Part shown: one piece after another, positions 6,238-64,000 of the stretch
How the letters are laid out: each line of letters opens with the position of its first letter
Position numbering within the stretch: the first letter of the stretch is position 1
Source: Icerya purchasi
Lineage: Eukaryota > Arthropoda > Insecta > Hemiptera > Monophlebidae
NCBI GenBank assembly: GCA_039619475.1
Contig: CM077116.1
Coordinates: 100,299,164 to 100,363,163 of the forward strand
Direction of reading: 5' to 3'
Length of the DNA: 64,000 nt
The notes under the pieces: model-generated
Seen by the model: only the letters and a program-made list of their open reading frames with translations
Databases searched by the model: none
Told to the model about the DNA's origin: nothing
Translations under genes and position numbers: made by a program

Positions 6238-6590
6238 ATTTGAAAAGGGTGGGGTTTTGAAAATTTCCTTCGCACATTTATTTTATAAATAACAATATAT
6301 TTTTCACTAATATTCATACTATTAATAATTTCCATAATTTTGATTTGTATATTAATAATTTACATAAATGAATTAACGCATAAACATTAATAAAAATTAC
6401 ATATGTTATTTACTATACTCGTAATAAAAAATTTTGCATAAAATATTAATGAAGTATCTAAAAATATAGAGCGTATTTTATCTCTTTTTTTTTTTTTGAT
6501 GTAAGAATACTCTAAAAAATCATCAATATTTATTTTAAATTTTTGATTTTTTTCAAATTTTCGTGTATTTACAATAACTATTCCAGTTCT
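6238..6590 (+). repeat. Dispersed repeat, copy 1 (pair with 24.9 kb)
   Basis: Starts with TTTGAAAAGGGTGGGGTTTT and runs colinearly with 24944-25300 for roughly 340 bp, including shared tracts such as CACTAATATTC and TACTCGTAATAAAAAATTTT, and ends in a long T-run. Divergence is a few to ten percent, with small indels. The second copy is preceded by a hAT-like end (cagggctgtgcccag), so both may be non-autonomous hAT remnants. No transposase is encoded. Confidence 0.7.
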
Positions 6591-6919
6591 AATGCCCTCC
6601 CCATCCCCTTGTGGACACGGCCCTGCTCAAACACGCTGTAACAATGTGTACGGAATTCAGAAGATTACGGAAAGGGAAAAGCGGAAAGAAAAATAAATGC
6701 GAAGGAAAGAAGAGAAAAGAAAACGAAAAAATCTCGGAGGCGATTCCGTAAGTTCCCTTCAGTCTATTTTTCAATCCATTTATTCTCACTGCTGTGACTT
6801 AATCATTCTTCGTATACAATTATTTATAATCTTCCTTTCTATCGCTCGGTTCACGTAAGGGCACCTTCGATGAGTAATGAAATGGCTGATATGTTTCGGC
6901 TAAAGTTGCTCCTTTAGAG

Positions 6920-39394: not shown

Positions 39395-39720
39395 ATCAAT
39401 AACTTATAAAAATCGCTACATAAAACAATAACTGAAACAATAAAAATTCCTTAAATGTATAAAAGAAATATTAAACGGATATCGAAATTATAAACCCAAT
39501 TCCACCCAATAACTTCTGAAAATCACTACATATACAAATAACTAAAACAATAAATATTTCCGAAATGTTTAAAATAAAATATTAACAGGAAATTAAAATT
39601 ATAAACCAATTACATTCAATAATTTCCAGAAATTGCTACATATAAAATACTGAAACAATAAAAATTCCTGAAAAGTTTGAACACTGACGAAATATTGAAA
39701 TCATAAACCAACGCACCGGT
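39395..39720. repeat. Degenerate tandem repeat, about 104-118 bp period
   Basis: Three units, each with a ctacata...actgaaacaataaaaattcc core (near 39415, 39533 and 39637), followed by an attataaaccaa segment. Divergence is moderate. Confidence 0.6.
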
Positions 39721-39959: not shown

Positions 39960-40860
39960 AGAAGAGATTTGAAAATAGTAGCACCTGAATATCTCGCTTA
40001 TAATCTTGTATGGTATTTACTTTGGAATTGAAGCAGAATAAGTATTCGAGAATCTAGTAAAACTCCTCAATAGAGAAATTTGAAATTTATCTTTATTATT
40101 AATTAAAAAATACAACAAATTTGTTTTATACAGGGTTTCAAAATTCAAGATGCCGTTCTCCTTTACACTGATATCTCGAAGTTGTGTCTTTTTAAGCACT
40201 GAATTTTGCAGGATTTTTATAGGTCTGATAAGATAATTAGCTGCACCACTCCACAAATTTATGCCGTAAGAAAGAATAGGTTAGTATAACACAAGGTATA
40301 ACCACCGTAGATGTTGCGGGGAAAAATACTGTTGTAAGTAATAGAACAAATAATTTAATCTTCTCAGCTTAGTAGCCAGATATGCTAGGTGCCTACCCCA
40401 CATCAACTTATGATCGGTCACTATTCCTAAATATTTTATTTCATCGCAACTATATTATTGTCTGATAAGTTTAGGAAAAAATTTATAAATTTATCAATAT
40501 GTTGAAAGCTATAGATTATGTATTTCGTCTTATTTACATTTAGTACTAATTTATTTTTACCCATCCAGTCTACAATTAAATCAATCCTACTTTGAGCTAA
40601 TTCTATTAAGGTAGTAGGGTACCGAGAGTTTACTAACACGACCGTATCATCTGCATAACTAATTAACTTCCCCTGCACATCCAAATTACAGAGTTCATTA
40701 ATGTAAATTAAAAACAATATGGGACCCAAGATAATCCCTTGAGGAACACCAAAATATTGCTCAATTTCATTACTGAAAATATTATTTATTTTTGTGACAT
40801 ATCTCCTGTTATTAACCCAGCACAAGTGAAATTTTTGGAAGTTTCAGTGTACGTGAGCGG
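39960..40860 (-). pseudogene. Non-LTR retrotransposon fragment (RT C-terminal half)
   Basis: Minus strand: FGVPQGIILGPILFLIYINE (about 40700-40760) and LISYADDTVVLVN (about 40625-40670), which are RT palm motifs with the catalytic YADD. The thumb region KNKLVLNVNKTKYIIYSF follows, then LGIVTDHKLMWGRHLAYL (about 40380-40430), and further pieces to a stop near 40017. It is 5'-truncated near 40860. Two frame breaks make it non-functional. Confidence 0.8.
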
Positions 40861-42410: not shown

Positions 42411-43333
42411 ACACATGCCGAAAATTGAGGTAAATATTCTATCCAAGGGGCAAAAACTAATCCCATTTCCTGTACCGGCGCTCAGAAACTAATCTAAATT
42501 TTCTTCCAGGATTCTAGAATTCACTCTAATCACTCCATCCTAAATATCCAGTAATCCGGCAAAATTTTCAAAATTTAATCAGAATTACGGTCCTGAGACC
42601 TAATATTCATCTAAGCTTAAAGCCCCTATTGATGTAACCGACCGGTAAGCTGAACACTAGCCTCTGGAAAGTGGGCCCCATTCTCCTGTTGCATTTCCAA
42701 AATGTAACTCAAGTGCATAATTTCGCTATTGAAAATTAACCCCAAACTCTGTTACAGCCCCTGGAAAATAACTTCAGCCCTCAAGGATGTGCTGTATGCT
42801 TTTGGTAACCCGTTTTTCATAATTCGAAGCTTAATATTTCGTCCGATCCCTGAAATTATCTCTAACCCTATTCCAGCCGGCCACCGACCGTATTTAATTT
42901 TTAATTTTTGAACTCTATATTACTAATTATTTTAATTAGTATTATTTTTGAACTAATCACTTAACAGTTATCGTTACCAACACACACACATACACTTCAC
43001 ATTGATATAATAATTTAAATCTCTGATCCATAAATTACTCTTATTTTTAATATTATTTCCATCTCTACAAATGTAATTTCTTAATTAATAAATGATCGTA
43101 TGAATATCTCCGCCTCCCGTTGGGCCACACAGCATCGTTATAACATCTTCTGTCTGCATGGAACACGCTTCTTCAAGGCCACTTATGTGCTGCCACCTGC
43201 CCATTAATTACCGCTATTCGGCAAAATAATATTTTCCACGATCGCACACGTACGCAAACGTACGTGCTTACACACATGCAAAGATCACCATCATCATTAT
43301 TGTCTACTATCTAGATACAGACATCACACTGGT
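42411..43333. repeat. Left flank of the palindrome, degenerate repeats
   Basis: Short diverged repeats of cctggaaaataac / ctgagaccta type. From about 42960 the sequence is a diverged copy of 45900-46400 inside the arm: compare cttcaaggccactt at about 43172 with cttcaagaccactt at about 46222, and the following cgctattcggcaaaataata. The arm repeats therefore continue outside the palindrome. Confidence 0.6.
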
Positions 43334-44196
43334 GAGTAGCTTATTTTTAGGTACTTTGGCACATAGTTCCATTTTTCTCCACTAGAAAATGTAGGAGCGC
43401 TAGTGTCGCATCTGAAAACACGATCCGCTCGCAGAAACTAACATATGTATTTTATTTGGGAAGCAAAAGTAACCAAATTTTTTTTGTTCCAACAGTGCAA
43501 ATTCATCCAAGTTTCTTTGTGGTTCACCAAATTTCCCCCAAATTCCTCCATGCGGTCCCCACGCATCTCCAATAATTTGGAGCATTTAAAAATTAGCCTA
43601 AGAATAAAATTTATAGCCAGAAACCAAGCTCCGATCGACCACCTTTTATCATTCAAACATATTTTTTATTTTATTTATTCCGTCCGTAAGTATTTATGTA
43701 TGTTTTCCCCGGTTCTAAAAATAAATCCATCGATGTCTCGCCCCTCAATGAATGCGCACCGTCCGATCCCACGCACATTCTGCTCTCATTAGTTTCCCTA
43801 TCGTTCATAATATTTTTTCCGGAGCCTAAGTATTATAAAATAAGTCAAAATATATTTATTCAATTTCTACGGTTCCAAAAATTTTTTCCTTATTCTCCGA
43901 TCATTGCAAAAGTGTACTGTCAAATCACATGCTTATTTCTATCATAACATTAGCCGTTGCAAAAGCATACCATTCGATCCTGCACACACTCTGCTCTCGA
44001 TAGTTTCCCTATTGTTCATAATATTTTTTCCGAAGCCTAAGTATTATAAAATTAGTCCAAGTATATTTTATTATTTTTCTCATTACGATTCTTTTTCCAT
44101 CCATAAGTATTATAAAATTAGTCTAAGTATATTTCTCATTTTCTATGGTTCCAAAAATTATTCTTTATTCTCCGATCGTTACAAAAGTGTACTGAC

Positions 44197-44575
44197 TAGT
44201 GATGGGCAACTTCGAAATGTTTCATTCAAATTATTCGATTGTTCGACAACTTCGAATGCATTCGATTGTTCCACAGTTGCATTCGAAATGTTATTTCATT
44301 CATATAAATCATTCGTATTCACAACAATCATTCGAATTAAAATCATTTGAATCAAAATCATTCGAATCAAAATCATTTGAATCAAAATCATTCGAATCAA
44401 AATCATTTGAATCAAAATCATTCGAATCAAAATCATTCGAATTAAAATCATTTGAACCAAAATCATTCGAATCAAAATCATTCGAATTAAAATCATTCGA
44501 ATCAAAATCATTCGAATCAAAATCATTCGAATCAAAATCATTCGATTGTTGTTTTTTTTGACGATTGCTAATTGT
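44197..44575 (+). mobile_element. hAT-type MITE copy 1, right end lost
   Basis: Starts TAGTGATGGGCAACTTCGAA after GTACTGAC, the same left end as copy 2 at 44815. It carries a longer 15-bp minisatellite. The sequence after gacgattgctaattgtttcg jumps straight to aaagtgaaccattcgatccc of the surrounding array, so the right terminal repeat and target duplication are deleted. Mirrored at 61597-61975. Confidence 0.7.
44328..44545. repeat. 15-bp minisatellite in MITE copy 1 (about 14 units)
   Basis: Units of ATCATTCGAATCAAA with C/T variants (TTCGAA or TTTGAA). In frame it would encode a repeated SFESK or NDFDS pentapeptide, but no gene context supports translation. Mirror at 61627-61844. Confidence 0.9.
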
Positions 44576-44814
44576 TTCGAAAGTGAACCATTCGATCCCG
44601 TGCACAATCTGCTCTCGATAGTTTCCCTATCGTTCATAATAATTTTTCAAAGCCTAAGTATTATAGAATTAGTGCAAGTATATTTATTATTTTTTCTCAC
44701 TTACGTTTATTTTTCCACCCGTAAGTATTATAAAATTAGTCTAAGTATATTTCTCATTTTCTACGGTTCCAAAAATTTTTCCTTATTCTCCGATCATTAC
44801 AAAAGCGCACTGAC

Positions 44815-45141
44815 TAGTGATGGGCAACTTCGAAATGTTTCATTCGAATTATTCGATTGTTCGATAACTTCGAATGCATTCGATTGTTTCACAGTTGCAT
44901 TCGAAATGTTATTTCATTCGAATAATTCATTCATATTCACAACAATCATTCGAATTAAAATCATTCGAATCAAAATCATTCAAATTAAAATCATTCGAAT
45001 CAAAAACATTCAAATTAAAATCATTCGAATCAAACTCATTCGAATCAAAATCATTCGAATGAAAATCATTTGATTGTTTTTTTTTTTTGACGATTGTTGA
45101 TTGTTTCGATTGTAAAAACATTTCGAAATCGCACATCACTA
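44815..45141 (+). mobile_element. hAT-type MITE copy 2, complete, with 8-bp target duplication
   Basis: The element runs from TAGTGATGGGCAACTTCGAA to CGAAATCGCACATCACTA. Its ends are inverted (TAGTGATG / CATCACTA and CTTCGAAATG / CATTTCGAAATC). It is flanked by GCACTGAC at 44807-44814 and 45142-45149, the 8-bp duplication expected for hAT transposons. The paralogous unit at 43914-43921 has a single GTACTGTC followed directly by the same downstream sequence (aaatcacatgctta), an empty site. It is non-coding, 327 bp, and contains about 8 minisatellite units. Mirrored at 61031-61357. Confidence 0.85.
44945..45070. repeat. 15-bp minisatellite in MITE copy 2 (about 8 units)
   Basis: Same ATCATTCGAATCAAA unit as in copy 1 with more A/T variants. 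Mirror at 61102-61227. Confidence 0.9.
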
Positions 45142-46672
45142 GCACTGACAGATCACATGCTTACATCTACCATAGCGTTAGCCACTGCAAAAGCGAACCA
45201 TTCGATCCCGTGCACACTCTGCTCTCGATAGTTTCCCTATCGTTCATAATAATTTTTCCAAGCCTAAGTATTATAGAATTAGTCTAGGTATATTTATTAT
45301 TTTTTTCACTTACGATTACTTTTCCATCCGTAAGTATTTATGTATGTTTTCCCCGGTTCTAAAAATAAATCTATCGATGTCTCGCCCCTCAATGAATGCG
45401 CACGTGTCATTCGTTCGCGTTACCACTTTTTTTCAAAATTAGTCAAAGTATATTTTATTATTTTTCTCATTACGATTATTTTCAGTCTGTAAGTATTTCT
45501 GTATGTTTTCTGAGGTTTTAAAAATGAATCCGAACAGACATCCAGACTGTTGTGAAAGCACACTAACCTTCTACATTATTCGTTACTCTATTACAAGTTC
45601 TTCAAAAATTGATTCGAATATTTTTTTCATTTTTTTTTTTCAATCCTAAAAATTCATTCTTTCTACCTCCGCCCCTCCCTGATAAAATTACCGATCTTTC
45701 GTAATCTTTATTTATTTTATCGATTCTAAAAATTAATCAATGGTTCACTCGAAAGCGTACCATACATTCCCACACACATATCTTCTATCACGAATTTCCC
45801 TACTGATCATGAACATTTTTCAATGTTAGCCACAATAGCATATCACACTGGTCTCGCATACGCACCACATGCAGTTCTATATGTTTAATTTTTTATTAAC
45901 GATCTTTATTTTTTGTACTGGTATTACTTTTTCCTACACAGTCATATCATCATATACACTTAACATTGTCAAAATAATTTTAGCCTTTCGAGAAGGAAAA
46001 ATCTCCGATCAATAAAAAGTGTTTATCAACATCACAATTATTTTTAATATTAATCGTTTCGCTACAAACATAATTTTTTTATTTAATAAACTCATCAACA
46101 TCATCAATCGTTTCAAGACATTATTGTTTCAAACATCAATTCCTCTTTTCCAAAAATTGATAACCTCTGCAGGTATATATCTCGTCGTCGCAACAACCTT
46201 TACCTGCATGACTCGCATACCTTCAAGACCACTTGTACATTGCTCGCACACTATTTACCATTATTCGGTACAAGAATATTTTTCACACTCCCTCACATAC
46301 ATATGCGCATACACTCAAAGTCCTCGATTACTTTGTTCGTATACAAATATATCAGCTTTCTCCAACAGAACAACATTTTTCTGACGTAACATTTCCACTG
46401 CCACAACCGATTCAAAGGTAGCTAATGAGATAGACTATCGAACGGAATCATTCAAGCAGTCAGTATTAGTTTTATGTTAAACATGTGTATTTTCTCAAAT
46501 CTGTGTTCACGCATTATTAAAAAATTTACGTCAACGTTAAAGAAAATAATTTCCTACGTTTTTTCTCTTTTTTTCTCTATCATTTTTTTTCTGTCTTTTA
46601 TCTTTTCTTTTTCTCTTTCTTTTTCTCTGTCTTTTTTTTTAGTGAAAAGTTTGAAATACATATTATTCAATC

Positions 46673-47176
46673 ATGAACGCTAATATAGTTAATGTAAGCA
46701 GCAACTCAAAATCAATTAAGGACGCCAAATTTATTCAGAATTCATTTTCGAGTGATATTGTCTCGCATACAACTTCACCACCTCCAACACCGCAATTAGA
46801 TTATGGTTATACAGCAGAAGAATCAAAATCTTTTGTACGTAATAACATTGATCCTGTATTATTATTAGAACAAGCAGATATATCGGAATATTTTGTAGAT
46901 ATCAGCATCCATATAGATTGTGATTATGATTTTCAAGTAACTAAACTAGCAATGATTGATATGTCTGGCGGGAAGTGTTTGCATATACTGTGTAAGCCAA
47001 GCAGAGCATGGCATGCATCAAAAATGCCGCATTTACAATGTTCTTCGATGAGTCATTACTTGAAAAACCCTTCATTATTTCCCTGTCGGGAAGAAATATT
47101 CATGGCACGCAATATATTCACAATATTGTCCCAAAAAACCGAGAGCTCGCATATATATTTTAACAGTATATGCTAA
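46673..47176 (+). pseudogene. Arm coding block A, first frame (167 codons), unknown
   Basis: Starts at ATG 46673 (MNANIVNVSSNSKSIKDAKF) after a long pyrimidine tract and AG (about 46610-46641) that could be a splice acceptor. It has a Ser/Asn-rich start, then EYFVDISIHIDCDYDFQVTK with an acidic motif. Later comes LHILCKPSRAWHASKMPHLQ with Cys/His residues. The layout faintly recalls short nuclease-like ORFs with a D-x-E start that accompany insect mobile and viral DNA. That is recollection, not a match, and the expected Glu is Ser here. The downstream end probably leaves the true frame near 47100-47160. Confidence 0.5.
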
Positions 47177-47186
47177 ACTTACACTA

Positions 47187-47693
47187 ATGGAACTTAATGA
47201 AAAGTCTGAATTGTTGCGTGACTTAGACTATGAAATCGTTAATATGGATCAAGTCTTTCGACTATATAGTATTGAGAATCTATATGAAGAGTATTTTGGT
47301 ATAAGCAATTTGATAACCTGTAAACATCTTAATGAGAATGTTAGTTTTCATTGTGCAGTGAAAAACGTTATGGTGATGAAGGCCTGGTACGATCATGTTA
47401 TCCATCCGCTGAAGCTTATGATTAATCTCAATATAAATGATTTAAGACAGTTGTTCATTATAGCCACCAAAGAAATGATAATTACATTATTTCCAAGTTG
47501 TGTTGGAGACATTTATACATTTCTACCAGATAGATTAAAACAGGATGTTACGATAAAATCACTTCTACCATGTTACGAGCATGAGCATGATGAAGAATAT
47601 TATATCGATAATGATACATTGCAACAGAGTACTCGAAATTGTATGAAAGTAAAAGATTGTATCGATTGTCAATATACAATTCGCGTGAATTAA
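47187..47693 (+). pseudogene. Arm coding block A, second frame (168 codons), unknown
   Basis: Ten bases after the preceding stop, in another frame. The frame is open upstream of its ATG as well, to about 47100, and gives coding-like residues there (IYILTVYAKLTL). One protein of about 335 residues split by a single frameshift is therefore more likely than two genes. It contains KHLNENVSFHCAVKNVMVMK (a C/H-containing stretch), a hydrophobic middle and an acidic tail with EHEHDEEYYID. No family is recognised with confidence. It is the best-preserved coding sequence in the arms. Confidence 0.5.
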
Positions 47694-50220
47694 AAATTCA
47701 TTATTTCAATCGTTTAACAATTTTGTGTATATTTGTATATATTTTGTATATTAATGTATATATTTTTCCCCAATCATCCGCTCGTTCGTTTTTTATGTTT
47801 TGTTAATCATTTTGTAAATATATTTTTATACATATGAAAATTTTGTTTGTATATATTTGTGTATATTTTCCCCCCTCAATATGTTTCGTTCTATTATATA
47901 TATTTTTCCTATTTATTTTTCATCTTTTTACACTCCTTTTCAATTCCGTTTATTTAATTATTTCTATATCTCTCTTTCCCCCTCTTAACTTAAAGTACTG
48001 GTAATGATGAATATTACAAAAATCTGAACCAGTTGTGTAAAGTGTATATATAATTATTGTCTAATTTTCGAATATAATCCCACATAATTTGTTCACATCT
48101 TTTTAGATTAAAAAATTATATTTTTGATTCTTTCTATAACAAACGAATCTAACTGTTCAAGTTTTTCATGTACATCAAGTATTTCTGGAACTGTGTGAGT
48201 TTTCATTAATTTGTAAGACTCAACCTAAGACCTGGAGAGTTCTCTCAAATTTTTTAAAATCTTTTATAATCACATTTTTATAAAAAATATGTATTAAGTT
48301 CACATGTTACTTAATATTTTTTTTATTTCATAAGTATTTTTCGAGGTATATACGAGATCGTCTATGAGGTGTGTTGATCAATAGAACAACAGGTAGAAAA
48401 CCTAGTAGTTTACGAGACACAGCATGTTCAAAGAAAAAACGAGCTAGCACAAGCTGATCAGGGTTACAATGTGCGAGTGAGAGATATATTCTCGAGAGCA
48501 ACAGCTTGATTATAAAAAACGTCGAAGATACATGCTTCTATACGTGAACAATTATCACATCAAACATAAAAAGGGTTGACTAAAAGAATATTAATATTAT
48601 TTTCTTTTTCATTCATTCTCGCTACTATTACTGCTCGCACCTCACTGTCAAGACCTCTGAACATACATTACTAACGTCGCCAACACTATAATATTTTTGC
48701 TCTGTGTTATTAAATTAACCCAGGTATATTTTTATTCGTTCATTACACAAACATTTTTTTCAAATCTTTTGTAATATGTCGTGCACACATTTATAGCCTG
48801 CAGACACTACTCGCTTCATTACCATGAAAACATCTCTTTCATTGGTACTTATCATAACATAGTTTTCCTAAAATTGTAGAAAAATTCTCTTTGCTCCATT
48901 CTTCCAAGGTGATTTATTTCCAAATTTCAAATCATGCATAATTATTTTAGAATCAAATTAAGTATATTTTGTCATTTCCAAAAAATCAAACATCTCTGTA
49001 CAGGGCATTAACTCATTTTCACATCAAACATATTATTTTTTTTTAATCTACCATACATATTATTTTTTATCATTTAAATTTTTCCTTAATTCACAAGTAG
49101 CTAACCTATAGAAAACATATTATTGTAAACATGCATGACGAAGTTACTCCTTGTAATTACATCATGAATTAATTTTTTCTTCATTTTTTTTTTTTACCAT
49201 CATGAAATTGTAGTAGTGTTTTTAATTTTTTTTATTTCCCATACATGACAAAAGCAATAGAATCACGGCATCTATGAATGTGTACACTGTACGCCTCCAA
49301 TAACCTATCAGGCATTTTTTTTAAATTAGTCCAAGCATAGTATTTTTTCAATATCAAAGCCGATCATACATAATCTTTTCTTCTATATAATCACTAACCT
49401 ATGAAAACACTTTGTTCGTTTTACTCATACCGAAGCAATCACTCTTTTTCCCTCATGCTAACAAACTTCAAAAATTAATGATATAACACGAAATTATTCT
49501 AAATATATGTTCATGCTATTAAAATTAATATATCAATTAATCTTTATATTCTTTTTGTACATTTCTGAAAAAATCCTACAACATGTTTTAAAATTAGTCG
49601 AAGTATACTATTTTATTACCTAAAATCAATTATTCTCTCATACAGTTTTTCCAATCATACATAATTTTTTTCCATATTATCATTATTTGCAAAGTCATAC
49701 AAAACAACAACATAATTTTAATCATAATTAATCCTTCATTCCATTCCTTTTATGCTATACACCATTATCGTTCAATTCAACGTTATGAAATTAGTCTAAA
49801 TATACATTCATGCTAGCAAAGTTATTATCTTACCCTTTGCATTGTTTCAAGATGATTTATTTTACATTTTTTCTTTAAATTTCCCTCATACTATTATTTT
49901 TGAAATGTAGGATGATGACTATGTTTAGAATTCATGATTATAAAGAGAGAGACGCATGCTGAAATTGTCATTGTATATGCGAGATGATATGTGATTGTGG
50001 GTGAGTATACATGCATGTAAAATATATGAGTGTGTTAGTAGAAAACATCCGTTCAAGCGTGAACACAGGTACAGATATAGTTATAGAAGGAGAGAGATAA
50101 AAATATATATTTTGTTATGTTTGATATGTGTATGATAAAGAGGTGAACAATGAATAATCACATTACCCTCACAACTTAGACATTGAGTTATACCTTTACA
50201 GTATTTTAGATGTAAAAGCA
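47694..50220. other. Arm spacer with a small coding-like block
   Basis: AT-rich with many TATATTT words. A GC-richer block at 48340-48506 (plus) reads SIEQQVENLVVYETQHVQRK onward for 43 codons between stops (48375-48377 and 48507-48509), with one in-frame stop before it; its mirror is 57666-57832. The opposite strand is also open there for 69 codons, so the coding strand is uncertain. Confidence 0.4.
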
Positions 50221-51250
50221 GTGACATTGACATGTAGTAAACGTTTTCATCACTTTTGACTAATTATAACCAATTTTCCAACATTTCTCATAATTTTCTT
50301 ACATTTTAATACTTTTACACCGTTTTAGTTAATTTTTGCTATTTAATGCCATTTTTCCAGTGTTTTTACCACCTTTCACACAATTTTCATCATTCTTTCA
50401 ATATCTTTGTTAGGTTTCTTCTTACAACTCATTACCATTTCGATCGTCATTATTGATATCCATCATTATTTATGCTTTCAATCCTTCTGCTTCATCTATG
50501 CACACATACAGCTTAGCAATCGCCACAGCCATTGAACACTGTAGAACCGCAATCGCGATCTCCATTTGATTATTGGGATTTAAAAGTCACATCTTTGAGC
50601 GCTTGATCTAATGCATCAACATGATCTTTGTATTCGCCCACCCACTGTTGGAGGTTCCACTTGATATCTTCAACAGACTATCATACAGTCGTTTAATAAG
50701 AGAATCCGTAATACCCGAGACATTTACTTAACGTTTTCCCAACACATTCACAGACCTACCCTGTACACTAAGGAAATCTTTAAACATCTCTGTAACCATT
50801 CCTTTTAAGCTGGTGGGAGCAAGGGACTCCTATAAACGTTTGTCAATCAACACTTCATTGTTCATTGCCCTGGTTTCACTCGCCATTACACAGTCATGTA
50901 ATAAACATTTTCTTCTTGTACAATTTTCTTATGCTTTAACACTATTACAACATTTTTCCTCATTTCTAACTAATTGTAACCAATTTTCCACTAATTCTTA
51001 GCACGTTCTTCTATTTTAGGACCTTTTTTGCGCTATTTTTTCATCAATTTATATTATTTCACATCGTTTTTTCTGATGTTTTTAGTGCCTTTCACACAAT
51101 TTTACTAATTATCTTCGATTATTTCTTAACATGTTCTTCCATTTTAGGACCTTTTTGCGCTGTTTTTTCATCAATTTATAATATTTTCCATCATTTTTTC
51201 TAGTGTTTTAGTACCTTTCACACAATTTTACTCAATTTTTTCACCATCTT
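50220..51250. repeat. Degenerate direct repeats flanking block C
   Basis: Segments such as ccaattttccaac, acctttcacacaattttact and ttaggacctttttgcgct recur at about 50235-50400, 50890-51110 and 51120-51245. Two units are 128 bp apart (gttcttc at 51005 and 51133). They lie on both sides of decayed coding block C. Mirror at 54922-55952. Confidence 0.55.
50470..50886 (-). pseudogene. Arm coding block C, decayed, left copy
   Basis: Mirror of 55286-55702; see there. Minus-strand start MASETRAMNNEVLIDK near 50886, with four in-frame stops and a frame change. Confidence 0.45.
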
Positions 51251-51490
51251 TGAAGATTTTTTCATTTATCTCATACATTATATGTCTGAATTTGACGATA
51301 GCTTTCCTTTTAAGTACATTTTATAATTCGATATAATGATAGATAATAACGAAAGATCTAATTCAATTTTGTTTAAAATTTATTCAATAATTTTTATGAC
51401 ATTCATCATAATCAATAAAAATGATCATTGCTTCAATGCTAAATTATATCAGTTAATTATTAAATATTCATAATATACAGCATAAAAAGA

Positions 51491-52712
51491 TTAATTTAAC
51501 TGATTATATCCTTCTTCTACCAACTTTTCTTGTATCATCCAAATTCCAGCATCTACATCAGTATTTTCCAATTGTTTAGATGTGTGTAGTATCAATAATC
51601 ATTCAACCACTTCATTAGGTTAGTCAGAATAAATTTATAAGAGGATCTTCAAGATATACTTTGTGACAAGTGCTATAAGTATGTTTCTTTTTTTGTTTCA
51701 CCAGGATAAACTTTTATACTATGTATGTTAGATTGAAATGGAGAACATATTTTTTTCTGTATTTAGGAAGTGGAGTTCCCTTTAATACACCAGTAACACA
51801 TACATGAGATCCAGTAAATTCCAGTATTTGTTCATATAGTGCTAAATCATTATTTGTATATATATTCTTATCAACATTCATTTCCATCAGTAAATGAATC
51901 AAACCTTCCGTGTAAGGAAATTTGGTTAGAGTTCTTCCTTTTCCAAAATAAATTTCATCACATTCACAATTCCATAGAAACTGGTCTTGATCTCATCATA
52001 TACTCATGAGTATTAGCATTATATAGTATTCAATATACTTGATCATTTATACAGATTCATCACCAGATATTTAAAATAGATCCATTTCACATATATTAAT
52101 AGACTTATATCCAGACTTATTATCACTATTGTTCATAATCTTCTTAATTTTCATCATTATTTTCATAATCATCTTTCTTACTGACACAAGAAAGTTTGTG
52201 ACGTTTTACTATTGCCATATCACTTATTCCATCAGAATCCTTTTTCATCGTTTTAGATATTTGTATTGTTTCCAGAATATCCAACATATGTTTTGTATCA
52301 GGTTCAAACACATCAGATGAATTATTTGTAATGGATTTCCAGAACTATATTTGCATTATATTTTTCATTATATCACTATACATTCTTTCCCTCTCACTTT
52401 TAAGACATGGTTCAGTATTTATTCCATTATTATTAATATTAAACATCACTTTACTCGTTGGCATCATTATTACATGTAATTTAAAAGTTCATCAAAACTC
52501 ACATATAAATCTTCTCTATATACACATTTCAGCATCTATTTTGTTCATAGAGATTTCATGATTATTCGTCAACAGTAATTTATAGAAAGTTTTTTTAATG
52601 GCTTAAAGAAATATTCAGTTCTATCATTCTTATTATATACATAATGTATTTCAAACTGTTCCCTAAATATTATATTCATGAAACAAATCTTTATAACAAC
52701 TATAATAAAATT
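51491..52712 (-). pseudogene. Arm coding block D, decayed, left copy
   Basis: Mirror of 53460-54681; see there. The hydrophobic plus-strand frames at 52129-52561 are antisense shadows of it. Confidence 0.45.
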
Positions 52713-53027
52713 GATGTGATTTAAGCTGAAAATAAGGTATTTTGCAGTAAAATCGTGGTTTTTGCATTTTAGGTGCTAATATTTTTGAGGTAAAATGGTA
52801 TTTTCCCTTTAAAATTTGATGTTTTGTCAAAATATTGATATTTTAGTCCTAAATGATGTAATTTCTGCATGAAGAGTACTTTTTAGCCTGAGCTGTATAC
52901 TTCTTGATGTGGTATTCCATTCATTGTGAAGCTATGTTTGAACGGGTTCATGTCTAGTTATGGGAGGTTTACAGAACTTTTCTACTGTATCAGTTATAGT
53001 AGAATGGTTGTTGTATGTTAGTGAGAT

Positions 53028-53144
53028 GATGGTGTTTGATTGTGAATAATAAATATGGGTAAGAGATGGAGTGTGTCCCTTTCAGAAATCTAAAAACCCC
53101 AAATTTTTTATTATGTACCTCTTTTTGGGGTTTTTAGATTTCTT
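53028..53144. other. Asymmetric centre of the palindrome
   Basis: The 117 bp between the arms. A 20-bp inverted repeat (53084-53103 with 53124-53143, agaaatctaaaaaccccaaa and complement) surrounds a 20-nt loop (53104-53123). Its axis (53113.5) differs from that of the arms (53086). The 56 bases at 53028-53083 have no counterpart on the right, where a single T (53144) stands. Confidence 0.9.
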
Positions 53145-53459
53145 ATCTCACTAACATACAACAACCATTCTACTATAACTGATACAGTAGAAAAGTTCTG
53201 TAAACCTCCCATAACTAGACATGAACCCGTTCAAACATAGCTTCACAATGAATGGAATACCACATCAAGAAGTATACAGCTCAGGCTAAAAAGTACTCTT
53301 CATGCAGAAATTACATCATTTAGGACTAAAATATCAATATTTTGACAAAACATCAAATTTTAAAGGGAAAATACCATTTTACCTCAAAAATATTAGCACC
53401 TAAAATGCAAAAACCACGATTTTACTGCAAAATACCTTATTTTCAGCTTAAATCACATC

Positions 53460-54681
53460 AATTTTATTATAGTTGTTATAAAGATTTGTTTCATGAATAT
53501 AATATTTAGGGAACAGTTTGAAATACATTATGTATATAATAAGAATGATAGAACTGAATATTTCTTTAAGCCATTAAAAAAACTTTCTATAAATTACTGT
53601 TGACGAATAATCATGAAATCTCTATGAACAAAATAGATGCTGAAATGTGTATATAGAGAAGATTTATATGTGAGTTTTGATGAACTTTTAAATTACATGT
53701 AATAATGATGCCAACGAGTAAAGTGATGTTTAATATTAATAATAATGGAATAAATACTGAACCATGTCTTAAAAGTGAGAGGGAAAGAATGTATAGTGAT
53801 ATAATGAAAAATATAATGCAAATATAGTTCTGGAAATCCATTACAAATAATTCATCTGATGTGTTTGAACCTGATACAAAACATATGTTGGATATTCTGG
53901 AAACAATACAAATATCTAAAACGATGAAAAAGGATTCTGATGGAATAAGTGATATGGCAATAGTAAAACGTCACAAACTTTCTTGTGTCAGTAAGAAAGA
54001 TGATTATGAAAATAATGATGAAAATTAAGAAGATTATGAACAATAGTGATAATAAGTCTGGATATAAGTCTATTAATATATGTGAAATGGATCTATTTTA
54101 AATATCTGGTGATGAATCTGTATAAATGATCAAGTATATTGAATACTATATAATGCTAATACTCATGAGTATATGATGAGATCAAGACCAGTTTCTATGG
54201 AATTGTGAATGTGATGAAATTTATTTTGGAAAAGGAAGAACTCTAACCAAATTTCCTTACACGGAAGGTTTGATTCATTTACTGATGGAAATGAATGTTG
54301 ATAAGAATATATATACAAATAATGATTTAGCACTATATGAACAAATACTGGAATTTACTGGATCTCATGTATGTGTTACTGGTGTATTAAAGGGAACTCC
54401 ACTTCCTAAATACAGAAAAAAATATGTTCTCCATTTCAATCTAACATACATAGTATAAAAGTTTATCCTGGTGAAACAAAAAAAGAAACATACTTATAGC
54501 ACTTGTCACAAAGTATATCTTGAAGATCCTCTTATAAATTTATTCTGACTAACCTAATGAAGTGGTTGAATGATTATTGATACTACACACATCTAAACAA
54601 TTGGAAAATACTGATGTAGATGCTGGAATTTGGATGATACAAGAAAAGTTGGTAGAAGAAGGATATAATCAGTTAAATTAA
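53460..54681 (+). pseudogene. Arm coding block D, decayed, right copy
   Basis: A chain of plus-strand frames with coding-like residues. 53499-53603 reads REQFEIHYVYNKNDRTEYFF. 53705-54028 starts MMPTSKVMFNINNN with one internal TAG at 53825 and later VFEPDTKHMLDILETIQISK. 54180-54458 reads CECDEIYFGKGRTLTKFPYT, then GSHVCVTGVLKGTPLPKYRK. A C-terminal piece DAGIWMIQEKLVEEGYNQLN ends at the stop 54679-54681. Stops and frameshifts separate the pieces, so the gene is dead. Hydrophilic composition and Asp/Glu/Lys usage argue for former coding. No family is recognised. Confidence 0.5.
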
Positions 54682-54921
54682 TCTTTTTATGCTGTATATT
54701 ATGAATATTTAATAATTAACTGATATAATTTAGCATTGAAGCAATGATCATTTTTATTGATTATGATGAATGTCATAAAAATTATTGAATAAATTTTAAA
54801 CAAAATTGAATTAGATCTTTCGTTATTATCTATCATTATATCGAATTATAAAATGTACTTAAAAGGAAAGCTATCGTCAAATTCAGACATATAATGTATG
54901 AGATAAATGAAAAAATCTTCA

Positions 54922-55952
54922 AAGATGGTGAAAAAATTGAGTAAAATTGTGTGAAAGGTACTAAAACACTAGAAAAAATGATGGAAAATATTATAAATTG
55001 ATGAAAAAACAGCGCAAAAAGGTCCTAAAATGGAAGAACATGTTAAGAAATAATCGAAGATAATTAGTAAAATTGTGTGAAAGGCACTAAAAACATCAGA
55101 AAAAACGATGTGAAATAATATAAATTGATGAAAAAATAGCGCAAAAAAGGTCCTAAAATAGAAGAACGTGCTAAGAATTAGTGGAAAATTGGTTACAATT
55201 AGTTAGAAATGAGGAAAAATGTTGTAATAGTGTTAAAGCATAAGAAAATTGTACAAGAAGAAAATGTTTATTACATGACTGTGTAATGGCGAGTGAAACC
55301 AGGGCAATGAACAATGAAGTGTTGATTGACAAACGTTTATAGGAGTCCCTTGCTCCCACCAGCTTAAAAGGAATGGTTACAGAGATGTTTAAAGATTTCC
55401 TTAGTGTACAGGGTAGGTCTGTGAATGTGTTGGGAAAACGTTAAGTAAATGTCTCGGGTATTACGGATTCTCTTATTAAACGACTGTATGATAGTCTGTT
55501 GAAGATATCAAGTGGAACCTCCAACAGTGGGTGGGCGAATACAAAGATCATGTTGATGCATTAGATCAAGCGCTCAAAGATGTGACTTTTAAATCCCAAT
55601 AATCAAATGGAGATCGCGATTGCGGTTCTACAGTGTTCAATGGCTGTGGCGATTGCTAAGCTGTATGTGTGCATAGATGAAGCAGAAGGATTGAAAGCAT
55701 AAATAATGATGGATATCAATAATGACGATCGAAATGGTAATGAGTTGTAAGAAGAAACCTAACAAAGATATTGAAAGAATGATGAAAATTGTGTGAAAGG
55801 TGGTAAAAACACTGGAAAAATGGCATTAAATAGCAAAAATTAACTAAAACGGTGTAAAAGTATTAAAATGTAAGAAAATTATGAGAAATGTTGGAAAATT
55901 GGTTATAATTAGTCAAAAGTGATGAAAACGTTTACTACATGTCAATGTCACT
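54922..55952. repeat. Degenerate direct repeats flanking block C, right copy
   Basis: Mirror of 50220-51250, here read as gtgtgaaaggtactaaaaac and tggaaaattggttacaatta words. Confidence 0.55.
55286..55702 (+). pseudogene. Arm coding block C, decayed, right copy
   Basis: Frame from ATG 55286: MASETRAMNNEVLIDKRL, stop, ESLAPTSLKGMVTEMFKDFL, stop, SGITDSLIKRLYDSL. A shifted frame gives VEDIKWNLQQWVGEYKDHVD, and the first frame then returns with MEIAIAVLQCSMAVAIAKLY up to the TAA at 55700-55702. Four in-frame stops and two frame changes make it a pseudogene. It is less AT-rich than its surroundings, which supports former coding. The protein was probably small and helical; no family is recognised. 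It sits between degenerate direct repeats, on the strand pointing away from the axis. Confidence 0.45.
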
Positions 55953-58478
55953 GCTTTTACATCTAAAATACTGTAAAGGTATAACTCAATGTCTAAGTTG
56001 TGAGGGTAATGTGATTATTCATTGTTCACCTCTTTATCATACACATATCAAACATAACAAAATATATATTTTTATCTCTCTCCTTCTATAACTATATCTG
56101 TACCTGTGTTCACGCTTGAACGGATGTTTTCTACTAACACACTCATATATTTTACATGCATGTATACTCACCCACAATCACATATCATCTCGCATATACA
56201 ATGACAATTTCAGCATGCGTCTCTCTCTTTATAATCATGAATTCTAAACATAGTCATCATCCTACATTTCAAAAATAATAGTATGAGGGAAATTTAAAGA
56301 AAAAATGTAAAATAAATCATCTTGAAACAATGCAAAGGGTAAGATAATAACTTTGCTAGCATGAATGTATATTTAGACTAATTTCATAACGTTGAATTGA
56401 ACGATAATGGTGTATAGCATAAAAGGAATGGAATGAAGGATTAATTATGATTAAAATTATGTTGTTGTTTTGTATGACTTTGCAAATAATGATAATATGG
56501 AAAAAAATTATGTATGATTGGAAAAACTGTATGAGAGAATAATTGATTTTAGGTAATAAAATAGTATACTTCGACTAATTTTAAAACATGTTGTAGGATT
56601 TTTTCAGAAATGTACAAAAAGAATATAAAGATTAATTGATATATTAATTTTAATAGCATGAACATATATTTAGAATAATTTCGTGTTATATCATTAATTT
56701 TTGAAGTTTGTTAGCATGAGGGAAAAAGAGTGATTGCTTCGGTATGAGTAAAACGAACAAAGTGTTTTCATAGGTTAGTGATTATATAGAAGAAAAGATT
56801 ATGTATGATCGGCTTTGATATTGAAAAAATACTATGCTTGGACTAATTTAAAAAAAATGCCTGATAGGTTATTGGAGGCGTACAGTGTACACATTCATAG
56901 ATGCCGTGATTCTATTGCTTTTGTCATGTATGGGAAATAAAAAAAATTAAAAACACTACTACAATTTCATGATGGTAAAAAAAAAAAATGAAGAAAAAAT
57001 TAATTCATGATGTAATTACAAGGAGTAACTTCGTCATGCATGTTTACAATAATATGTTTTCTATAGGTTAGCTACTTGTGAATTAAGGAAAAATTTAAAT
57101 GATAAAAAATAATATGTATGGTAGATTAAAAAAAAATAATATGTTTGATGTGAAAATGAGTTAATGCCCTGTACAGAGATGTTTGATTTTTTGGAAATGA
57201 CAAAATATACTTAATTTGATTCTAAAATAATTATGCATGATTTGAAATTTGGAAATAAATCACCTTGGAAGAATGGAGCAAAGAGAATTTTTCTACAATT
57301 TTAGGAAAACTATGTTATGATAAGTACCAATGAAAGAGATGTTTTCATGGTAATGAAGCGAGTAGTGTCTGCAGGCTATAAATGTGTGCACGACATATTA
57401 CAAAAGATTTGAAAAAAATGTTTGTGTAATGAACGAATAAAAATATACCTGGGTTAATTTAATAACACAGAGCAAAAATATTATAGTGTTGGCGACGTTA
57501 GTAATGTATGTTCAGAGGTCTTGACAGTGAGGTGCGAGCAGTAATAGTAGCGAGAATGAATGAAAAAGAAAATAATATTAATATTCTTTTAGTCAACCCT
57601 TTTTATGTTTGATGTGATAATTGTTCACGTATAGAAGCATGTATCTTCGACGTTTTTTATAATCAAGCTGTTGCTCTCGAGAATATATCTCTCACTCGCA
57701 CATTGTAACCCTGATCAGCTTGTGCTAGCTCGTTTTTTCTTTGAACATGCTGTGTCTCGTAAACTACTAGGTTTTCTACCTGTTGTTCTATTGATCAACA
57801 CACCTCATAGACGATCTCGTATATACCTCGAAAAATACTTATGAAATAAAAAAAATATTAAGTAACATGTGAACTTAATACATATTTTTTATAAAAATGT
57901 GATTATAAAAGATTTTAAAAAATTTGAGAGAACTCTCCAGGTCTTAGGTTGAGTCTTACAAATTAATGAAAACTCACACAGTTCCAGAAATACTTGATGT
58001 ACATGAAAAACTTGAACAGTTAGATTCGTTTGTTATAGAAAGAATCAAAAATATAATTTTTTAATCTAAAAAGATGTGAACAAATTATGTGGGATTATAT
58101 TCGAAAATTAGACAATAATTATATATACACTTTACACAACTGGTTCAGATTTTTGTAATATTCATCATTACCAGTACTTTAAGTTAAGAGGGGGAAAGAG
58201 AGATATAGAAATAATTAAATAAACGGAATTGAAAAGGAGTGTAAAAAGATGAAAAATAAATAGGAAAAATATATATAATAGAACGAAACATATTGAGGGG
58301 GGAAAATATACACAAATATATACAAACAAAATTTTCATATGTATAAAAATATATTTACAAAATGATTAACAAAACATAAAAAACGAACGAGCGGATGATT
58401 GGGGAAAAATATATACATTAATATACAAAATATATACAAATATACACAAAATTGTTAAACGATTGAAATAATGAATTT
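55953..58478. other. Right-arm spacer (mirror of 47694-50219)
   Basis: AT-rich; contains the mirror of the small coding-like block at 57666-57832 (minus strand). Nothing else was seen. Confidence 0.5.
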
Positions 58479-58985
58479 TTAATTCACGCGAATTGTATAT
58501 TGACAATCGATACAATCTTTTACTTTCATACAATTTCGAGTACTCTGTTGCAATGTATCATTATCGATATAATATTCTTCATCATGCTCATGCTCGTAAC
58601 ATGGTAGAAGTGATTTTATCGTAACATCCTGTTTTAATCTATCTGGTAGAAATGTATAAATGTCTCCAACACAACTTGGAAATAATGTAATTATCATTTC
58701 TTTGGTGGCTATAATGAACAACTGTCTTAAATCATTTATATTGAGATTAATCATAAGCTTCAGCGGATGGATAACATGATCGTACCAGGCCTTCATCACC
58801 ATAACGTTTTTCACTGCACAATGAAAACTAACATTCTCATTAAGATGTTTACAGGTTATCAAATTGCTTATACCAAAATACTCTTCATATAGATTCTCAA
58901 TACTATATAGTCGAAAGACTTGATCCATATTAACGATTTCATAGTCTAAGTCACGCAACAATTCAGACTTTTCATTAAGTTCCAT
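58479..58985 (-). pseudogene. Arm coding block A, second frame, right copy
   Basis: Translated sequence identical to 47187-47693. Confidence 0.5.
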
Positions 58986-58995
58986 TAGTGTAAGT

Positions 58996-59499
58996 TTAGC
59001 ATATACTGTTAAAATATATATGCGAGCTCTCGGTTTTTTGGGACAATATTGTGAATATATTGCGTGCCATGAATATTTCTTCCCGACAGGGAAATAATGA
59101 AGGGTTTTTCAAGTAATGACTCATCGAAGAACATTGTAAATGCGGCATTTTTGATGCATGCCATGCTCTGCTTGGCTTACACAGTATATGCAAACACTTC
59201 CCGCCAGACATATCAATCATTGCTAGTTTAGTTACTTGAAAATCATAATCACAATCTATATGGATGCTGATATCTACAAAATATTCCGATATATCTGCTT
59301 GTTCTAATAATAATACAGGATCAATGTTATTACGTACAAAAGATTTTGATTCTTCTGCTGTATAACCATAATCTAATTGCGGTGTTGGAGGTGGTGAAGT
59401 TGTATGCGAGACAATATCACTCGAAAATGAATTCTGAATAAATTTGGCGTCCTTAATTGATTTTGAGTTGCTGCTTACATTAACTATATTAGCGTTCAT
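58996..59499 (-). pseudogene. Arm coding block A, first frame, right copy
   Basis: Translated sequence identical to 46673-47176, including the frame break before the next segment. Confidence 0.5.
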
Positions 59500-61030
59500 G
59501 ATTGAATAATATGTATTTCAAACTTTTCACTAAAAAAAAAGACAGAGAAAAAGAAAGAGAAAAAGAAAAGATAAAAGACAGAAAAAAAATGATAGAGAAA
59601 AAAAGAGAAAAAACGTAGGAAATTATTTTCTTTAACGTTGACGTAAATTTTTTAATAATGCGTGAACACAGATTTGAGAAAATACACATGTTTAACATAA
59701 AACTAATACTGACTGCTTGAATGATTCCGTTCGATAGTCTATCTCATTAGCTACCTTTGAATCGGTTGTGGCAGTGGAAATGTTACGTCAGAAAAATGTT
59801 GTTCTGTTGGAGAAAGCTGATATATTTGTATACGAACAAAGTAATCGAGGACTTTGAGTGTATGCGCATATGTATGTGAGGGAGTGTGAAAAATATTCTT
59901 GTACCGAATAATGGTAAATAGTGTGCGAGCAATGTACAAGTGGTCTTGAAGGTATGCGAGTCATGCAGGTAAAGGTTGTTGCGACGACGAGATATATACC
60001 TGCAGAGGTTATCAATTTTTGGAAAAGAGGAATTGATGTTTGAAACAATAATGTCTTGAAACGATTGATGATGTTGATGAGTTTATTAAATAAAAAAATT
60101 ATGTTTGTAGCGAAACGATTAATATTAAAAATAATTGTGATGTTGATAAACACTTTTTATTGATCGGAGATTTTTCCTTCTCGAAAGGCTAAAATTATTT
60201 TGACAATGTTAAGTGTATATGATGATATGACTGTGTAGGAAAAAGTAATACCAGTACAAAAAATAAAGATCGTTAATAAAAAATTAAACATATAGAACTG
60301 CATGTGGTGCGTATGCGAGACCAGTGTGATATGCTATTGTGGCTAACATTGAAAAATGTTCATGATCAGTAGGGAAATTCGTGATAGAAGATATGTGTGT
60401 GGGAATGTATGGTACGCTTTCGAGTGAACCATTGATTAATTTTTAGAATCGATAAAATAAATAAAGATTACGAAAGATCGGTAATTTTATCAGGGAGGGG
60501 CGGAGGTAGAAAGAATGAATTTTTAGGATTGAAAAAAAAAAATGAAAAAAATATTCGAATCAATTTTTGAAGAACTTGTAATAGAGTAACGAATAATGTA
60601 GAAGGTTAGTGTGCTTTCACAACAGTCTGGATGTCTGTTCGGATTCATTTTTAAAACCTCAGAAAACATACAGAAATACTTACAGACTGAAAATAATCGT
60701 AATGAGAAAAATAATAAAATATACTTTGACTAATTTTGAAAAAAAGTGGTAACGCGAACGAATGACACGTGCGCATTCATTGAGGGGCGAGACATCGATA
60801 GATTTATTTTTAGAACCGGGGAAAACATACATAAATACTTACGGATGGAAAAGTAATCGTAAGTGAAAAAAATAATAAATATACCTAGACTAATTCTATA
60901 ATACTTAGGCTTGGAAAAATTATTATGAACGATAGGGAAACTATCGAGAGCAGAGTGTGCACGGGATCGAATGGTTCGCTTTTGCAGTGGCTAACGCTAT
61001 GGTAGATGTAAGCATGTGATCTGTCAGTGC

Positions 61031-61357
61031 TAGTGATGTGCGATTTCGAAATGTTTTTACAATCGAAACAATCAACAATCGTCAAAAAAAAAAAACAATC
61101 AAATGATTTTCATTCGAATGATTTTGATTCGAATGAGTTTGATTCGAATGATTTTAATTTGAATGTTTTTGATTCGAATGATTTTAATTTGAATGATTTT
61201 GATTCGAATGATTTTAATTCGAATGATTGTTGTGAATATGAATGAATTATTCGAATGAAATAACATTTCGAATGCAACTGTGAAACAATCGAATGCATTC
61301 GAAGTTATCGAACAATCGAATAATTCGAATGAAACATTTCGAAGTTGCCCATCACTA
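61031..61357 (-). mobile_element. hAT-type MITE copy 2, right-arm copy
   Basis: Inverted duplicate of 44815-45141, including both target duplications. It was carried along by the palindrome rather than inserted independently. Confidence 0.85.
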
Positions 61358-61596
61358 GTCAGTGCGCTTTTGTAATGATCGGAGAATAAGGAAAAATTTT
61401 TGGAACCGTAGAAAATGAGAAATATACTTAGACTAATTTTATAATACTTACGGGTGGAAAAATAAACGTAAGTGAGAAAAAATAATAAATATACTTGCAC
61501 TAATTCTATAATACTTAGGCTTTGAAAAATTATTATGAACGATAGGGAAACTATCGAGAGCAGATTGTGCACGGGATCGAATGGTTCACTTTCGAA

Positions 61597-61975
61597 ACAA
61601 TTAGCAATCGTCAAAAAAAACAACAATCGAATGATTTTGATTCGAATGATTTTGATTCGAATGATTTTGATTCGAATGATTTTAATTCGAATGATTTTGA
61701 TTCGAATGATTTTGGTTCAAATGATTTTAATTCGAATGATTTTGATTCGAATGATTTTGATTCAAATGATTTTGATTCGAATGATTTTGATTCAAATGAT
61801 TTTGATTCGAATGATTTTGATTCAAATGATTTTAATTCGAATGATTGTTGTGAATACGAATGATTTATATGAATGAAATAACATTTCGAATGCAACTGTG
61901 GAACAATCGAATGCATTCGAAGTTGTCGAACAATCGAATAATTTGAATGAAACATTTCGAAGTTGCCCATCACTA
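61597..61975 (-). mobile_element. hAT-type MITE copy 1, right-arm copy
   Basis: Inverted duplicate of 44197-44575, again without its second terminus. Confidence 0.7.
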
Positions 61976-62838
61976 GTCAGTACACTTTTGTAACGATCGG
62001 AGAATAAAGAATAATTTTTGGAACCATAGAAAATGAGAAATATACTTAGACTAATTTTATAATACTTATGGATGGAAAAAGAATCGTAATGAGAAAAATA
62101 ATAAAATATACTTGGACTAATTTTATAATACTTAGGCTTCGGAAAAAATATTATGAACAATAGGGAAACTATCGAGAGCAGAGTGTGTGCAGGATCGAAT
62201 GGTATGCTTTTGCAACGGCTAATGTTATGATAGAAATAAGCATGTGATTTGACAGTACACTTTTGCAATGATCGGAGAATAAGGAAAAAATTTTTGGAAC
62301 CGTAGAAATTGAATAAATATATTTTGACTTATTTTATAATACTTAGGCTCCGGAAAAAATATTATGAACGATAGGGAAACTAATGAGAGCAGAATGTGCG
62401 TGGGATCGGACGGTGCGCATTCATTGAGGGGCGAGACATCGATGGATTTATTTTTAGAACCGGGGAAAACATACATAAATACTTACGGACGGAATAAATA
62501 AAATAAAAAATATGTTTGAATGATAAAAGGTGGTCGATCGGAGCTTGGTTTCTGGCTATAAATTTTATTCTTAGGCTAATTTTTAAATGCTCCAAATTAT
62601 TGGAGATGCGTGGGGACCGCATGGAGGAATTTGGGGGAAATTTGGTGAACCACAAAGAAACTTGGATGAATTTGCACTGTTGGAACAAAAAAAATTTGGT
62701 TACTTTTGCTTCCCAAATAAAATACATATGTTAGTTTCTGCGAGCGGATCGTGTTTTCAGATGCGACACTAGCGCTCCTACATTTTCTGGTGGAGAAAAA
62801 TGGAACTATGTGCCAAAGTCCCTAAAAATAAGCTACTC

Positions 62839-64000
62839 TGGTGCAGGCGCTAATCTCTGCATTTTCAATAATTGCGAAGATTTTATTGGTAAATTTCACC
62901 CCACAGTCACGTACCTGTCATTATATCCCTCTCTGTTTGATATACCATCATACACGTCTATATTCATCCCACTCTCACACCCCTCGACTGATATTCTATT
63001 GTCTAAATAACTCGCCAAACTATTACGCACTATGTGTACCGCGCACGATTCGCCCTAGCCCGATACACACGAAATCCCGCTGGATCCACCGTGCCGAGTG
63101 GAATTTAATATTTTAAATTATTAATATTACGAAATATTACTTTTATCAGCATTATTTTTTCGTTGCACAATTATGTCATCACTTGCGCTTTACAATGGCA
63201 AATAATTTCAACCCTTTATATAGGGAAATCTCCAGACAATAAACATTTTTATCGCATCATTATTTCTAACATTAATTATATCGCTACCCGTCATTTTAAT
63301 CAATTAATTAATTAAAGTACGTGAAAATACTAGTAAACCATCAATCTATCCCTGATGCGAATATTTTCGGTGGCATTTTTATGTATCATACACGCTCAGG
63401 TGCATTCATAATATTTTTTTTCTGCGTATGTTGTAGCCCCGACCGCTGCAAGAGCGCCCCAAGGTACACACGCACGGGTGTTGCCGGTCAATCGCGTATT
63501 ATCGCCGCTGCGAAAGCGCACTGTCCGTTTCCATACATGTACACCCCTTCCAGTAACCGTCACGATTTTTCAAAAATTTCGAGCGTAAATATTCAACATT
63601 TTTTTTTTCAAATTCCAAAATTTTTCCAACCTTTTACAATATATTTTCCCCCGAATAAGTCAAAACCTTAATTGCTGCGGAAGTATACCAACCGTGACGA
63701 CGTCCATCTCACGTTTCTGTCACCATCACTGCCAACATGAAAGCACGCCCGGCCGCTCCCGCGCACGCAATCATCACCACTACTGTGGAATGCACTGTCC
63801 GCTCGGTATATGCTGTATATCACCGAAAAGCCACTTTAAAAACTCCGAGTACATGTATTAAAAATAAACCAGAGGCAATATTAATTTTTACCAATTCTAA
63901 AAATCACCCTCTTCTCCTTTGAACTTAATCTTTGCTTCTACCACGAAAGCGCACCATCCGTTTTTGCACATGCAAGCGCCGTTGAAATCGAATTTGACGG
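62839..64000 (+). repeat. Right flank of the palindrome, diverged array units
   Basis: Not a mirror of the left flank. 63120-63300 (aatctccagacaataaacat, then a tatcgctac stretch) is a diverged forward-orientation relative of 45900-46080. Units with gaaagcgcac-tgtccgttt recur near 63510, 63740 and 63945, about 205-235 bp apart, like the arm array. No gene was seen. Confidence 0.55.

Follow-up and report, generated by a model that had tools for sequence, protein, structure and literature searches.

A 64,000-nucleotide (nt) stretch of the Icerya purchasi genome (GenBank assembly GCA_039619475.1, contig CM077116.1, forward-strand positions 100,299,164 to 100,363,163), which we call the window, contains a nearly perfect palindrome of 19.5 kb. 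All positions given here refer to the window. Judging from the sequence, we lean towards a local inverted duplication, produced by fold-back or template switching within an old and diverged array of same-strand repeats, whose arms may have been kept identical by gene conversion.

Base-by-base mirror pairing about position 53086 defines two inverted arms (43334-53027 and 53145-62838), each 9,694 bp long. They differ by two mismatches (43352/62820 and 43383/62789), without any insertion or deletion. A separate repeat search recovers identical limits, with a spacing of 117 nt. This bears out the original prediction, which had described arms of this size, mirrored about this axis, with two mismatches and no length difference. 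A chance origin of the arms is negligible, and the presence of the palindrome in the assembled sequence is confirmed. The inner 9,644 bp of both arms are identical, with no differences and no indels, which places the upper 95% bound on arm divergence at about 3.1e-4 per site. The event would therefore be very recent, unless gene conversion has acted. The earlier suggestion of either a very recent inverted duplication or an identity maintained by conversion fits these data.

A unique core had also been proposed at the axis. There is indeed a gap of 117 bp between the arms, but it is not a single, simple unique core. It folds into a 20-bp stem (53084-53103 with 53124-53143) which closes a loop of 20 nt, and alignment of both sides shows that 56 bp (53028-53083) are present to the left of the axis only, the right side having a single bp opposite them. 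The folding energy of the central DNA is -18.9 kcal/mol, compared to a mean of -7.4 for shuffled sequences (z -5.1), and none of 200 shuffles was as stable. Since the stem lies within the gap, the palindrome runs on to a turn of about 20 nt and is asymmetric beside it. Probably one side of the centre was trimmed after the duplication. Judging from the sequence, extrusion of a hairpin or cruciform by the palindrome is plausible.

Both mismatches between the arms are found within their outermost 50 bp (P ~2.7e-5 under random placement). Differences are thus confined to the outer edges and the centre, which are the places where the arms adjoin unlike DNA. A plain young duplication does not predict this clustering. 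It would follow from gene conversion failing near the edges, and equally from consensus polishing with reads which can be anchored only near unique sequence.

Outside the borders the symmetry ends. When the right flank is mirrored, it matches the left flank at chance level (86/328 and 142/500 positions), and no homology in inverted orientation is found there (score 26, shuffle maximum 35). The first sign of a shared array was a match in direct orientation, with a score of 39 against 34 for shuffles. The 1,162 bp of right flank included in the window align to the left arm with a score of 416 in forward and 165 in reverse orientation, the best of 60 dinucleotide shuffles reaching 241. The corresponding values are 287 and 173 for the left flank against the arm (best shuffle 272) and 248 and 101 for the left flank against the right flank (best shuffle 175). 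Because the arm is AT-rich, we have added a control with real sequence, in which 35 tiles from 1-41800 were aligned to the arm in both orientations. Between forward and reverse scores, the right flank shows a difference of 251 and the left flank one of 114, and the largest difference among the control tiles is 118. The flank-to-flank score of 248 is higher than those of all 54 orientations of 27 control tiles aligned to the right flank (best scores 188 forward and 206 reverse). This control shows that raw scores and E-values against an AT-rich arm are weaker evidence than they would seem, so the argument rests on the orientation bias and on the match between flanks. The sharing of k-mers between the right flank and the arm also has a forward bias, which at k = 8, 9 or 10 exceeds that of every one of 36 control tiles. 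The bias falls within the controls for k = 11 (29 vs 31), and that of the left flank towards the arm does so for k = 8, 9, 10 and 11. A shared unit can be located at 42870-43253, 45840-46300 and 63072-63350. In summary, the forward relation stands for the right flank with the arm and for the flanks with each other; a direct relation between left flank and arm is not secure by itself.

Base composition and a short motif extend this resemblance. In the adjoining 1,162 bp, GC skew is -0.27 in the left flank, -0.28 in the outer left arm and -0.28 in the right flank. Among 821 overlapping windows ending at or before 42171 the lowest value is -0.248, so that none is as extreme, and 35 non-overlapping tiles lie between -0.17 and +0.19. 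The skew stays negative across the left border, with values of -0.386 and then -0.246 in 500-bp bins. It has the opposite sign in the right arm. The 20-base motif GAAAGCGCACCATTCGATCC, with up to 6 mismatches, has five + strand copies in the left arm, two + strand copies in the right flank and five mirror copies in the right arm; it is absent from both strands of 1-43333. The order in which the shared unit is followed by the motif is found in the left flank plus outer arm, and again in the right flank.

We should also note that the whole left arm has a GC skew of -0.20, beyond all 34 overlapping flanking windows of 9.7 kb (-0.067 to +0.072). This value at first suggested a foreign insert, an idea which was reversed by finer bins, in which both adjoining flanks have the same negative sign. 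The skew varies inside the arm, where 46834-47833 and 49834-50333 are positive.

The right flank thus seems to be part of the diverged array from which the left arm comes, and to lie in the orientation of that arm; by way of the right flank, the same would hold for the left flank. The palindrome is therefore probably locally derived. On balance, we regard both flanks and the left arm as what is left of a single old array with uniform orientation, and the right arm as a flipped newcomer. The features on which this view is based are collected in Table 1, together with other features of the arms.

Table 1. Features of the Icerya purchasi palindrome, its centre, its contents and the adjoining flanks
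Feature	Position	Strand	Basis and remarks
Left-flank unit	42870..43253	+	Alignment; resembles right flank 63073-63328 and arm 45882-46300 at about 59% in forward orientation; right-flank relation supported, direct arm relation weak
TGGT just outside left border	43330..43333	+	Border direct-repeat test
Left arm, probable native copy	43334..53027	+	Mirror pairing, repeat search; orientation agrees with right flank
Outer 50 bp of left arm	43334..43383	+	Mirror pairing; mismatches 43352 and 43383
GAAAGCGCACCATTCGATCC-like motif copies, left arm	starts 43750, 43961, 44579, 45189, 45751	+	Motif scan
15-bp tandem array (AATCATTCGAATCAA)	44326..44545; second array 44944-45070	+	Tandem repeat search; mirrored in right arm
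Element resembling a miniature inverted-repeat transposable element (MITE)	44815-45141; mirror 61031-61357		Read from sequence; ends TAGTGATG / CATCACTA, perfect 8-bp direct repeat GCACTGAC on each side
Left-arm unit	45840..46130	+	Alignment; 64.7% identical to right flank 63072-63350, forward
Probable gene, with two open reading frames (ORFs), 46673-47176 (167 aa) and 47187-47693 (168 aa), which do not share a frame	46673..47693	+	ORF list
Left-only 56-bp stretch	53028..53083	+	Alignment of both sides; deletion in right arm or insertion in left
Innermost stem, left strand, 20 bp	53084..53103	+	Folding
Loop of 20 nt, true turn of the palindrome	53104..53123	.	Folding
Innermost stem, right strand, 20 bp	53124..53143	-	Folding
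Right arm, mirror copy, probable inverted duplicate	53145..62838	-	Mirror pairing, repeat search
Outer 50 bp of right arm	62789..62838	-	Mirror pairing; mismatches 62789 and 62820
TGGT just outside right border	62839..62842	+	Border direct-repeat test
Right-flank copy of the 45840 unit	63072..63350	+	Alignment; oriented as left arm
GAAAGCGCACCATTCGATCC-like motif, right flank	63512..63531 (5 mismatches); second 63945-63964 (4 mismatches)	+	Motif scan

Several observations weigh against a local origin of this kind. The left flank matches the arm weakly: Its score of 287 compares with 272 for the best shuffle and is reached by 9/35 control tiles forward and 9/35 reverse, and its orientation difference of 114 lies inside the control maximum of 118. 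Even the raw score of 416 for the right flank is reached by 3/70 control tile orientations, all of them AT-rich and scoring alike both ways. The E-values obtained with sensitive BLAST (3.8e-19 for the right flank and 1.1e-9 for the left flank) are inflated by composition, as AT-rich stretches match at 52-58% with E-values down to 1.9e-26; the arm against the far flank in reverse orientation gives values down to 2.3e-11, and simple-repeat stretches match at 61-65%. In a Markov test, which separates arm and flank weakly, the right flank is classed with the flanks and not with the arm, its scores being -0.017 and -0.060 in forward orientation and -0.059 and -0.106 in reverse. The GAAAGCGCACCATTCGATCC motif, of which 4/1000 shuffles of the right flank had two or more copies, was picked after the sequence had been inspected. 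Moreover, inside the left arm the motif copies stand before the 45840 unit, not after it. Finally, the fold-back model does not account for the TGGT which adjoins both borders (P ~0.01), and we have identified no microhomology for rejoining at 62839.

The sequence of events we propose is as follows. The ancestral order would have been left flank, arm, central turn and right flank, with one orientation throughout. A 3' end growing in the course of replication or repair may have folded back at a short inverted repeat, around the 20-nt loop, and primed reverse copying of about 9.7 kb of the arm, as far as 43334. The new arm would then have been rejoined to the downstream array at 62839, and about 56 bp beside the loop would later have been lost from it. 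Finally, the arms would be either too young to differ or mutually corrected, with differences surviving at the extreme outer edge and in the centre.

Fold-back priming of inverted duplications has been described in yeast, where the palindromes are likewise centred on a short stem and a short loop (PMC10622511, PMC7999016). The starting points are inverted repeats of 5-9 bp with spacers of 3-12 bp in Mre11- or Sae2-deficient cells (cited in PMC7999016) and, in wild-type yeast, an inverted repeat of 5 bp with a 35-bp spacer in 2/3 events (PMC10622511). By analogy, the stem-loop at the turn is the relic that fold-back priming would be expected to leave. In yeast, the resulting dicentric chromosome breaks and captures a telomere (PMC10622511, PMC7999016), whereas array-like DNA borders the interstitial Icerya palindrome on either side. 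The amplicons produced by origin-dependent inverted-repeat amplification (ODIRA) are likewise interstitial and inverted, have a short inverted repeat at the junction and occasionally show a deletion in one arm (PMC4689423). The 56-bp gap on one side of the centre is similar to a deletion which affects the palindrome arms asymmetrically, removing DNA from one of them at the junction, and which was seen in 2 of some two dozen SUL1 amplicons of yeast (PMC4689423). On the other hand, ODIRA leads to triplications, or 2n+1 copies, with an inverted central copy (PMC4689423), and only two copies are seen here. A third forward copy directly after the right arm was not found in the 1,162 bp of right flank within the window; in this flank, the resemblance to the arm is about 58-65%, and a near-identical match to it is not seen.

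The main rival is an artefact of assembly, library preparation or polishing, because fold-back reads are a documented problem. Reads of this type, or a misjoined repeat, could have created the second arm, or polishing could have erased real differences between arms. We consider this possible, but clearly less probable than a true duplication. According to PMC12870357, fold-back artefacts in long-read data make up at most 0.61% of reads in Oxford Nanopore Technologies (ONT) data from genomic or complementary DNA, some of these reads are nearly perfectly palindromic, and they can tangle assembly graphs. The absence of differences in 9,644 bp agrees with such an origin, and so does the position of all the differences near unique sequence, the regions in which a consensus could be corrected by short reads that are anchored there. 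A simple fold-back, however, would mirror the left flank past the arm, and the flanks are unlike at mirrored positions; the window contains no N characters. Nor is a copied read expected to carry a one-sided stretch of 56 bp and two substitutions at the edge. Its resemblance to the left arm, with the orientation that would be expected, makes the right flank a plausible true neighbour.

A second alternative, which we consider very unlikely, is a mobile element. It would have terminal inverted repeats (TIRs) grown to 9.7 kb, or consist of a linear element of 9.7 kb present as an inverted dimer, and would have been inserted as a unit with TGGT as its 4-bp target duplication. The sharp borders agree with this, as does the presence of TGGT just outside both of them (P 0.007 for 4 bp and 0.010 for any direct repeat of 4-10 bp at fixed borders), and the weak direct match between left flank and arm leaves some room for it. 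Against it, the right flank is similar to the left arm when both are read forward, and the negative skew runs across the left border. No family of transposases, integrases or polymerases, one of which a TIR DNA transposon or Polinton should encode, is above the Pfam cut-off among ten arm ORFs. The mismatches are located at the termini and not in the interior, and the terminal 18 bp have no copy within 3 mismatches in the window besides the two ends. The hint at a transposon-like object in the original prediction fits less well than a duplication, as the flanks appear to be array kin of the left arm in forward orientation. A giant transposon or viral element was rejected, as Pfam gave nothing above its cut-off for the ten arm ORFs scanned, and searches of PDB (one ORF), a protein database (two ORFs), viral contigs (two ORFs and one terminal pattern) and phage records (the gene region) found no relative.

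A selected, long-lived ampliconic palindrome of the type found in sex chromosomes, in which conversion would preserve the paired convergent gene, seems just as improbable as a mobile element. In sex-chromosome palindromes the arms are also kept alike and gene conversion is possible, but their spacers usually measure kilobases, unlike the short turn found here. Differences restricted to the arm ends fit conversion failing near the edges, but each arm has the probable gene broken up between two reading frames, and a young duplication accounts equally well for the identity. Arm-to-arm conversion in the human Y chromosome is mentioned in PMC1803023, which also gives a long-lived precedent in C. 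elegans. The Caenorhabditis inverted repeats with the F44E5.4/F44E5.5 gene pair are similar to the Icerya palindrome in their long, near-identical arms, their spacer of about 120 bp and their inverted genes; in C. elegans the arms have 2,207 bp and the spacer 126 bp (PMC1803023). The arms described here are more than four times longer (9.7 kb) and identical in their interior, and their genes converge, while those in Caenorhabditis diverge (PMC1803023).

The probable gene in the left arm is mirrored at 58479-59499 (-), so the two copies converge on the axis. The difference in frame between its two ORFs is alike in both arms and could be due to a decayed gene, an intron or a 1-base error in the consensus. 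Pfam searches with ten arm ORFs, which spliced genes could escape, gave nothing above the cut-off, the best match being DUF2299 (E 0.067). Searches of a protein database with two arm ORFs found no homologue, and a PDB sequence search with one arm ORF had a best E-value of 0.72. The 168-aa ORF has no relative in the protein database or among viral contigs, and the 167-aa ORF has none among viral contigs; nor does a 32-base terminal pattern, the only one compared with these contigs. The gene region did not match any of the phage records searched. Scans of the window with Rfam, at the gathering threshold, and for transfer RNAs with the bacterial code were empty.

The MITE-like element is flanked by an 8-bp duplication, GCACTGAC, which presumably places it close to hAT elements. 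As it is mirrored, it either predates the duplication or was copied by conversion. A tandem duplication is also found within the arm: The segments 44083-44382 and 44701-45000 are 93% identical, with a spacing of 618 bp.

The left part of the window contains other repeats. Dispersed copies of one repeat are located at 6239-6594 and 24944-25312 (86% identical), and a tandem array with 2.6 copies of a 110-bp unit at 39397-39678. Broken fragments of reverse transcriptases of the type without long terminal repeats (non-LTR) are found at 11434-13064, 20285-20996 and 40439-40843 (-), with four RVT_1 matches and one endonuclease match below the cut-off. A fragment of a mariner transposase, with a Mos1-type helix-turn-helix (HTH) domain (PF17906, E 3.4e-06), is present at 29945-30202 (+). 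Together with the sparse coding, these reverse transcriptase and transposase fragments mark the window as eukaryotic DNA, probably from an animal.

Should the palindrome prove to be an artefact, it would serve as a useful warning not to trust perfect palindromes in assemblies unless reads support them. If it is real, it has preserved traces of its own origin, with a stem-loop where it turns, a stretch trimmed on one side of this turn, and arms which differ from each other at their edges only. If the argument from the flanks holds, the direction of copying may be deduced from sequence alone. A bolder proposal, which we consider unlikely, is that a palindrome of 19.5 kb with an effective turn of 20 nt is stably carried in an animal genome, its identity being kept by arm-to-arm conversion, with convergent genes or read-through possibly yielding very long double-stranded RNA. 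This would contradict the expectation that long, tight and perfect palindromes are quickly lost. A real palindrome at this locus would offer a natural experiment on the lifetime, in a germ line, of kilobase-scale palindromes with a tiny turn.

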